This document shows, in pieces, positions 22,082 to 23,383 of a stretch of DNA of 64,000 nt (positions within the stretch are counted from its first letter, which is position 1; each line of letters opens with the position of its first letter). This DNA is from Bacteroidales bacterium (GTDB lineage Bacteria; Bacteroidota; Bacteroidia; Bacteroidales; UBA932). The stretch is from contig JAFSPG010000013.1 of NCBI GenBank assembly GCA_017443025.1, forward strand, positions 1 through 64,000. Direction: 5' to 3'. The position numbers and the translations under genes were made by a program. Under the pieces are notes generated by a model that did no database searches, was not told the DNA's origin, and saw nothing but the letters and a program-made list of their open reading frames with translations.

Positions 22082-23383
22082 TCAGGAAGGATGAATGTCC
22101 GTGACGGTGCAGTCGAGGCGGCCGTCGGAGAGGCGGACCGAGACGGCGTCGCCTTTCTTGCGCCCCTTGACCGAAGTCATACGGACTCCGGCAGAGTCGG
22201 TGACAAGGGAAAAGCCGCGGCGCAGGACTTCAGCCGGGTCGGCGGCGGCGAGCCGGGCCTCGAGCACGCCGAGCTTTGCTTCGGCGTTTGCGAAACGGCC
22301 CCGCGCAGCCGTGAGCAGCGCGTCGCGCGCGGCGCCAAGGCGCAATTCCATGGCACCTATCCGGGCAGTATATGAAGCACGGAGTGAGGACTCCAGTGTG
22401 CTGATGCGCTGGTCTTCGGCGATATAACAGTCGAGGAAAAGGTCAGCGAGCGCCGTAGGAGTCTTCACATAGGTGTTTGCTACCATGTCTGCAACGTGAA
22501 AATCGCGCTCGTGGCCTATGGCCGTAACGACCGGTATCGGACAGCGGGCTATGGCCGCGGCGAGCTCATAATCGTCAAAGCAGGCCAGGTCGAGCTCCGA
22601 CCCTCCGCCCCTCAAAATCAGCACCGCATCAACCGGTGCGGGCATAAGGCTTCCGTTGCCTTCCGCTTCGCTCCATCCCTCCCAACCGATGGTTGGGCCC
22701 CTCCCGTTCATGTGGCCACGGGCGGCCACAGGCCCGGAAGCCTTATGCCCGCACCCGGTTTCACATATAGTCTCCAGGGCGGAGATGATGGAGGCGGGGG
22801 CGGAAGCGCCCTGCATCGTCGCCTCGAAGAGCTCGGCTCTCAGCACAAAGCCATACTCGTTCTCCAGCAGATGCTTGCGGAAATCACCCCATCCTGCGGC
22901 GCCCTCAGCTGAAATAACCGCGAGCCGATACGGCAGAACAGGCAGACAAAGCTCCTTCTGCATATCCAGCAGGCACTCAGAAGCAAGCCTCTCAAGAGTC
23001 TGCCGCTTCTGAAGCTCCCTCTGCCCGAGAACATATGCTCCGTCAATATCCTCAACGGTAAGCGTAAGCCCCCAGAGCGGGCTGAACGACACCTGCACCT
23101 GAAGCAGGACTTCCATTCCCGCCTCCGGCGCCTGTCCTGTCTGCTCGATGAAAGATTTAAGAAGGGTTGAGTAGCGGCTCCGCCAGATAACAGCGCGGGC
23201 CTTGGCTACCAGAGTACCACCCTCATCGCTCTGCGAAAGCTCCAGATAGCAATGTCCGTTCGACTTGACCGACACACTGCTAATCTCAGCCTTCACCCAG
23301 AGCACGTCGGGGAAAGCATCCGACACCGCCGCCGCAGTATACTCCTGCAGCGTCAGCAAATCAATGTATCCCCTCTCCTCCAT
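22082..23383 (-). CDS. xseA: exodeoxyribonuclease VII large subunit, with an in-frame palindromic insertion
   Basis: 433 aa. Catalytic subunit of the single-strand-specific nuclease. N-terminal OB-fold (VLWVKAEISSVSVKSNGHCYLEL, about 28-110), then the catalytic part with LAVISAEGAAGWGDF, VLILRGGGSELDLACFDDYELA, TAIGHERDFHVADMVA and TPTALADLF. About 43 residues (208-251), rich in G, A and P, interrupt the usual short link between the helix ending in ETIC and DAVLILRGGG. They are encoded by a nested palindrome at 22631-22760. No xseB is adjacent. The ATG directly follows the TAA of the plug lipoprotein gene (TAAATG). Confidence 0.93.
   Translation of the reverse strand: MEERGYIDLLTLQEYTAAAVSDAFPDVLWVKAEISSVSVKSNGHCYLELSQSDEGGTLVAKARAVIWRSRYSTLLKSFIEQTGQAPEAGMEVLLQVQVSFSPLWGLTLTVEDIDGAYVLGQRELQKRQTLERLASECLLDMQKELCLPVLPYRLAVISAEGAAGWGDFRKHLLENEYGFVLRAELFEATMQGASAPASIISALETICETGCGHKASGPVAARGHMNGRGPTIGWEGWSEAEGNGSLMPAPVDAVLILRGGGSELDLACFDDYELAAAIARCPIPVVTAIGHERDFHVADMVANTYVKTPTALADLFLDCYIAEDQRISTLESSLRASYTARIGAMELRLGAARDALLTAARGRFANAEAKLGVLEARLAAADPAEVLRRGFSLVTDSAGVRMTSVKGRKKGDAVSVRLSDGRLDCTVTDIHPS
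22631..22760 (-). repeat. nested palindromic element inserted in frame in xseA
   Basis: Outer inverted repeats at 22631-22654 and 22736-22760 match at 24 positions with one extra base in the right arm. Inside lie two perfect hairpins: CCCAACC-GAT-GGTTGGG (22681-22697) and TGTGGCC-N6-GGCCACA (22711-22730). On the coding strand the first hairpin is preceded by GGGAGGGG and followed by AGGG, the same order as in the element inside the polyferredoxin gene. The element stays open in the xseA frame. It looks like a small mobile or amplified palindrome tolerated within a protein. Confidence 0.85.

Follow-up and report, generated by a model that had tools for sequence, protein, structure and literature searches.

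A dispersed palindromic element with a pseudoknotted core is read in frame within xseA of a Bacteroidales bacterium

The window, the whole analysed stretch of 64,000 nucleotides from a Bacteroidales bacterium, carries xseA on the reverse strand (22082..23383). The gene encodes the exodeoxyribonuclease VII large subunit (433 aa), and the protein qualifies as an xseA equivalog in NCBIfam (TIGR00237, 260.1 bits vs a cut-off of 180). Comparison of DNA and protein with the XseA linker of relatives delimits an insert of 114 bp (22640..22753, reverse strand), which corresponds to residues 211-248. A first-pass annotation made from the letters alone had put its size at about 43 residues (208-251), a value corrected to about 38 against the relatives. 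The annotation had also stated that the frame is kept, and the open frame of 433 aa indeed runs continuously through the element, with the product passing the TIGR00237 cut-off.

An outer inverted repeat lies at the ends of the insert. Arm 1 (22635..22655) has its inner part in the insert and its outermost bases in the flank proper to xseA, and arm 2 (22735..22755) is complementary to it at 21 of 21 positions, with a spacing of 79 nt between them. Extended to 22631-22655 and 22735-22760 (25/26 nt), the arms are 96% paired. The interior contains a conserved structured core, the part common to the copies of the element (22675..22730, reverse strand). It scores 81.1 bits with covariance model R1 and is the joint best match of its genome, the xseA core itself being one of the 34 rows from which the model was built. 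Hairpin P1 (22711..22730, reverse strand) consists of 7 bp, TGTGGCC/GGCCACA, and a loop at 22718-22723. Hairpin P2 (22681..22697, reverse strand) consists of 7 bp, CCCAACC/GGTTGGG, and has a 3-nt loop in the xseA copy. A pseudoknot pairs CCCGT within the P1 loop (22718..22722) with ACGGG (22703..22707), both read on the coding strand, which is the reverse strand. The outer inverted repeats and the two inner hairpins described at first pass are thus real features of the sequence. The block is a nested palindrome, but the part that recurs elsewhere is the pseudoknotted core including the inner hairpins, not the outer repeat. The suggested RNA fold was computed on a stretch of 141 nt and is far more stable than shuffled sequences on both strands: -79.9 kcal/mol on the coding strand (z -6.9) and -76.2 kcal/mol on the other (z -7.0), with none of 200 dinucleotide shuffles as stable in either case.

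XseA was present in 99 of 101 genomes searched, and 30 loci were compared, that of the window included. The 29 other loci have a short linker at the insertion point, without this element, and neither arm is present at the empty site in the xseA genes compared. The element occurs only in the window's own XseA among the 30 loci. The outcome named at first pass as refuting, the same residues present in all close relatives as a conserved domain, was thus not obtained. One solved relative was found, an exodeoxyribonuclease 7 large subunit (8txr), and its match breaks off on one side of the insert and restarts on the other (query 205/252, chain 191/199).

The genome of the window (1.66 Mb, 93.5% complete) holds further copies, so that the second refuting outcome named at first pass, a lack of other copies, did not occur either. 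A DNA search returned 25 matches, which reduce to 19 places, xseA included and one of them partial (L025), because two matches are the arms of the window copy and eight are the halves of four split copies. A covariance-model search gave 20 matches in 17 of the 19 places and none elsewhere. A 96-nt query was then applied to 101 genomes, comprising this genome, 60 of the same genus and 40 of other genera of the order. The element was matched in 46 of them, 45 of the 61 in the genus and one of the 40 outside it. In that single outside genome (G087), three of five matches begin no more than three bases from the start of a contig (C10, C13, C23), and the best locus (L053) has 144 nt in common with a member of the genus (G029) at 95%. 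With these features, a binning error or a transfer is a possible source of the element in G087, as is an assembly break at the repeat. An exact pattern of the element retrieved at least 120 stretches from named GTDB contigs. Among the 80 matches listed, the record titles name Bacteroidales, Bacteroidaceae, Bacteroidia or, in three cases, Candidatus Cryptobacteroides; judged by these titles, the host genus is probably Candidatus Cryptobacteroides. One exact pattern had no match in viral_contigs, and the 56-nt core had none in 72,556 plasmid and 50,697 phage records. Phage or plasmid cargo was rejected on these null searches.

Four of the 19 copies in the genome of the window are read in frame, a count to which the partial L025 and three copies with a spanning frame outside the profile comparison (L012, L015, L019) do not contribute. 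All four proteins score above their NCBIfam cut-offs. Besides XseA, these are DapF (L002), where strand and peptide are as in XseA (149.8 vs 114.65), MurF (L003), where the element is reversed and its other strand is read (334.5 vs 288.6), and a citrate-lyase-ligase/CitG fusion (L419), whose variant copy contains an additional insert (266.1 vs 262.1). Eleven other copies are not spanned by an open frame of 130 aa. In the genome of a relative (G137), 24 matches were found and 20 were fetched, of which at least 11 lie within open frames of recognisable genes: recG, ksgA, queH, rsmF, a uvrD-type helicase, a SpoU methyltransferase, tldD/pmbA, xer, a dnaX-type gene, hemW and dsbD. Profile matches flank the insert on both sides in nine of these (queH with two stretches, the second unplaced); for hemW and dsbD the profile covers one side, and the other was aligned to relatives at the DNA level. 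Scores below the curated cut-off were obtained for hemW (200 of 205.4), the dnaX-type fragment (100 of 685) and the first TldD domain (20.4 of 20.9). L238 and L243 had no Pfam match; L243 matches the NCBIfam dnaX models under their cut-offs. Of 20 copies fetched from G016, 11 lack a spanning frame of 130 aa and nine lay outside the profile comparison. All in-gene counts begin from open frames and therefore miss copies that break a gene.

The peptide is common to xseA and dapF, comes from the opposite strand in murF and is read in other frames in the G137 genes. These copies bear on the reading that the insert is a lineage-specific functional domain of XseA, encoded by chance in palindromic DNA. 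The kept frame and the continued fit of the protein to XseA models agree with such a domain. The same DNA core, however, occurs in 18 other places (one partial), including the genes for DapF and, in reversed orientation, MurF, and the element is missing from the 29 other XseA loci. A genuine XseA domain is largely refuted by the other copies and frames, and hardly any likelihood is left to it.

Short palindromic repeats of other types are read through in the same proteins. XseA of G027 (L057), one of the 29 loci compared, carries a different small repeat of the GTCATCCTGAGCGAAGCGAAGGATC type at the same linker, and a near variant occurs in DapF of G028 (L095); the peptides are CHPERSEGS and CHSERSEES. 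These repeats resemble the present element in being read through in XseA and DapF and differ from it in their length of about 25 nt and the lack of a pseudoknotted core. A ATGCCCGGTCAGGCCGGGCATGAC-type repeat is read through in DapF of G054 (L104), giving MPGQAGHD twice in one DapF. With two different repeat families in it, the XseA linker is an insertion-tolerant spot.

The structure of the core was derived from 34 distinct cores chosen by pattern (alignment A1), with variant and split copies excluded and the CCCTC/GAGGG subfamily represented by L009 alone. Core length is 52-65 nt in this alignment and 52-87 nt overall. The core consists of P1, P2 and a pseudoknot that joins the P1 loop to the strand after P1, and 95.6% of 640 pair cells are paired. 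The covariation score is 0.329 vs 0.134 in shuffled alignments, none of 500 reaching it, while slid partners give at most 0.065. Changes on both sides occur at 9 of 19 pairs vs a shuffled mean of 5.9 (reached by 5 of 500 shuffles), and further pair types number 23 vs 20.5 (55 of 500); all of these measures can be inflated by related rows. By helix, both-sided changes affect four of seven pairs in P1 and three of seven in P2. The five pseudoknot pairs are formed in all 34 cores, and two of them show both-sided changes. One pseudoknot pair occurs as GC, AU, UA or GU, another as UA or CG. Within P1, the pair of columns 3 and 18 fails to form in 13 of 34 rows, and the four nucleotides at its foot vary at columns 2 and 4. 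No Rfam match fell on the core at E values up to 5 in 19 loci, and a known Rfam RNA was discarded as its identity. A chance-level dinG match (E 3.7, under the gathering score) adjoins the L019 copy. Three copies in the genome of the window (L010, L017 and L018, at C7:41.6 kb, C11:15.0 kb and C3:24.9 kb) contain a similar extra hairpin-rich stretch of ~78 nt, CGACGCACGAGTGAGTAAAGAG...CTTAACATT, inside the pseudoknot region, so that one element is nested in another.

The arms behave differently from the core. They measure 25-30 nt, match each other and mostly differ from copy to copy; in 139 of 148 copies from all sources, the two arms of a copy pair better than the 99th percentile of mismatched arms. 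Outer left arms were compared between copies with cores at least 95% identical and set against background similarity. Median similarity was 5.5 vs 5 in the genome of the window (4 pairs), 7 vs 5 in G016 (33 pairs; maximum 25, in one subfamily) and 7 vs 6 in G137 (9 pairs). About 10 nt adjoining the core are often alike between copies. A G016 subfamily (L225, L227-L231) differs from other copies in its longer P2, an 85-nt core, common arms and partly similar flanks.

End repeats are common to the copies of a MITE family. A classical MITE, that is, a deletion derivative of an insertion sequence on which a DDE transposase acts through conserved terminal inverted repeats, is suggested by the size, the inverted ends and the non-coding nature of the element, and also by the G016 subfamily and the similar nucleotides next to the core. 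It is nevertheless unlikely: apart from that subfamily, the end repeats are mostly not common to copies, outer left arms of nearly identical cores are near background in all three genomes, and visual inspection of xseA and recG aligned with diverged relatives showed no evident target duplication.

Empty sites narrow the choice further. recG of G008 is empty, and as in xseA neither arm is present. At the intergenic site of L161 (G133), the element is missing from G123 and is truncated and inverted in G020. The comparison of L150 and L187 gave no empty site, the whole intergenic stretch being missing in G123. A simple inverted duplication of the target was rejected, given that neither arm is found in xseA or recG of the relatives compared; the lengths of the murF and dapF linkers differ among relatives and are uninformative here. 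The length of the arms, about 25-30 nt, and their mostly locus-specific sequence would also fit insertion into the loops of pre-existing hairpins, such as terminators. The empty xseA linkers compared and the recG linker of G008, however, hold no such hairpin and are too short for one, which makes this origin very improbable, and it was set aside.

Nine sites are filled in at least two genomes: three intergenic sites and the genes ksgA, recG, xer, rsmF, dsbD and hemW. Eight of them, all except hemW, show opposite core orientations in at least one pair of genomes. The inverted core is the same or closely similar at ksgA, recG, dsbD and the three intergenic sites. At xer and rsmF it belongs to another subfamily, and because the other genome holds a different subfamily, independent insertion is an equally likely origin at these two genes. 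G137 and G058 have different cores (identity 0.75) in the same orientation at xer. When each filled relative was compared with G137 at the six gene sites, 7 of 12 were inverted; the orientation pattern is strict and missed a recG copy in G015 that was found otherwise, so a site without a pattern match need not be empty. Between G020 and G133 the outer ends of the arms switched sides together with the core, whereas at the G016/G060 site they did not, for which crossovers at different points in the arms are the simplest reading. Because the core is inverted between species, the encoded peptide changes completely at shared sites in other genes, a further point against a functional XseA domain.

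In ksgA, recG and xer, identity between the two arms of a copy mostly exceeds identity of the same side between species. The recG arms of G137 are 0.97 identical within the copy vs 0.57 and 0.66 to those of G058, and the corresponding values for xer are 0.93 within the copy vs 0.70 and 0.69 between species. Two intergenic sites show the reverse trend (0.80-0.85 within a copy vs 0.91-0.93 between species). The recG cores of G137 and G058 are 98% identical in opposite orientation, while the arms are 57-66% and the flanks 86-90% identical. Such conservation of the core, together with compensatory changes that extend to the pseudoknot, could point to a dispersed conserved structured RNA, a regulator or ribozyme selected for its RNA function at each place. 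Against this stand the lack of an Rfam match on the core in the 19 loci and its changing orientation to the gene at one and the same site. A function borne by the mRNA would break where cores flip relative to the gene, and the RNA reading is likewise unlikely.

Several known systems resemble the element. Passages of two papers describe the Rickettsia palindromic elements (RPEs) as dispersed, about 150 bp long and present as many in-frame copies in unrelated conserved genes (PMC10969869, PMC3733652); one conserved peptide is common to the inserts according to one of them (PMC10969869). The Bacteroidales element is palindromic too, of similar size, dispersed in one genome and in frame within conserved genes. 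The RPE-like behaviour suspected at first pass for xseA is repeated in dapF, murF, the citrate-lyase-ligase gene and at least 11 genes of G137. In contrast to this description of RPEs, the inserts share no single conserved peptide, and the element belongs to another phylum. Its own features include a pseudoknotted core, arms that mostly differ between copies, reading in several frames and on both strands, and flips. In its behaviour, the element works like RPEs.

REPs measure 20-40 bp and carry a GTAG or CGTC tag, as stated in a section of PMC3733652, which also describes them as palindromic, dispersed, partly intragenic and distributed over several phyla, with CGTC REPs in Bacteroidetes. Intragenic REPs are associated there with genes for DNA synthesis and repair, and tolerant linkers or loops are discussed in parts of both papers (PMC3733652, PMC10969869). 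The element resembles REPs, BIMEs and REPINs in being palindromic, dispersed and partly intragenic, and its hosts in replication and repair are xseA, recG, uvrD-type, dnaX-type and xer genes. The core differs in its 52-87 nt, its three helices and a foot tetranucleotide that is not constant. By size and tag, the element is not a REP. In-frame fusions, which it also forms, occur among bacterial MITEs (ERIC, NEMIS, RUP and others) according to excerpts of PMC10969869 and PMC3733652. At first pass, such elements were not known to be described for Bacteroidota. Among the papers listed by searches of the open-licence PMC literature, none was recognised that deals with palindromic elements of Cryptobacteroides or with palindromes that code for protein in Bacteroidota, except PMC3733652, which already reports CGTC REPs from the phylum and intragenic REPs in several species.

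The best explanation of the block in xseA is that it belongs to a family of small interspersed palindromic elements, non-coding and about 110-150 bp long, of one Bacteroidales genus. A probability of roughly 0.85 is assigned to this explanation. The element is dispersed, has a folded core within inverted arms, is present at sites that are empty in relatives, lies in opposite orientations and is read in frame on either strand. The spread of its copies would depend on an enzyme that acts in trans and recognises the folded, single-stranded hairpin core. Most insertions into genes would be lost. Survivors would have a length that is a multiple of three and an open frame in a tolerant linker, and because only these survive, the element would persist as a protein loop. 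Template switching or compensatory change may keep the arms mutually palindromic while their sequence drifts, recombination between the arms may invert the core, and the cores may be homogenised within a genome.

An HUH/Y1-type transposase is the first candidate for the mobilising enzyme, by analogy with REP/RAYT systems and from a genus-wide association. Among 61 genomes of the genus, 40 have both the element and a Y1_Tnp match, 5 the element only, 6 a Y1 match only and 10 neither (Fisher p 1.5e-4); the numbers for genomes at least 90% complete are 20/3/0/3 (p 0.008), and spurious matches weaken the association. One match to PF01797 (Y1_Tnp) in the genome of the window (L409, G000:C17:212968-213264) is above the cut-off and falls in a cytidylate-kinase-like frame, named by eye. 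Other genomes of the genus may contain the same false positive. The copy-rich genomes G016 and G058 have weak Y1 matches only (E 3e-4 and 5e-4). The genome of the window encodes two Y1-like proteins of about 300 aa (L408, L410), one on a contig without a copy and the other on a contig where the nearest copy is ~47 kb off. An inverted repeat of 49 nt, 71% complementary (GTGG...CCAC), lies at L408:1217-1321, just upstream of a Y1-like gene of 334 aa (L408:1329-2333). This palindrome was the only repeat found around the Y1 matches, and it is not the present core. No mobilising gene could be tied to the element among the Y1_Tnp matches across the 61 genomes.

A more far-reaching variant is possible, though doubtful: the pseudoknotted core would be inserted, replaced and inverted within hairpin arms that are not carried as fixed ends, and in this form would colonise the linkers of housekeeping proteins throughout the genus. 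If true, it would represent a new mode of mobile element, in which nearly every site has its own well-matched and unrelated terminal repeats.

Intragenic REPs of other species are already in print, as a part of PMC3733652 documents. The interspersed element favoured here, a family matched in 45 of 61 genomes searched in an animal-gut Bacteroidales genus, makes several processes testable: its movement, its tolerance within genes for replication, repair and rRNA modification, and the palindromic upkeep of unrelated arms. For annotation it serves as a warning: inserts of ~40 residues found in some proteins of this group are not protein domains.
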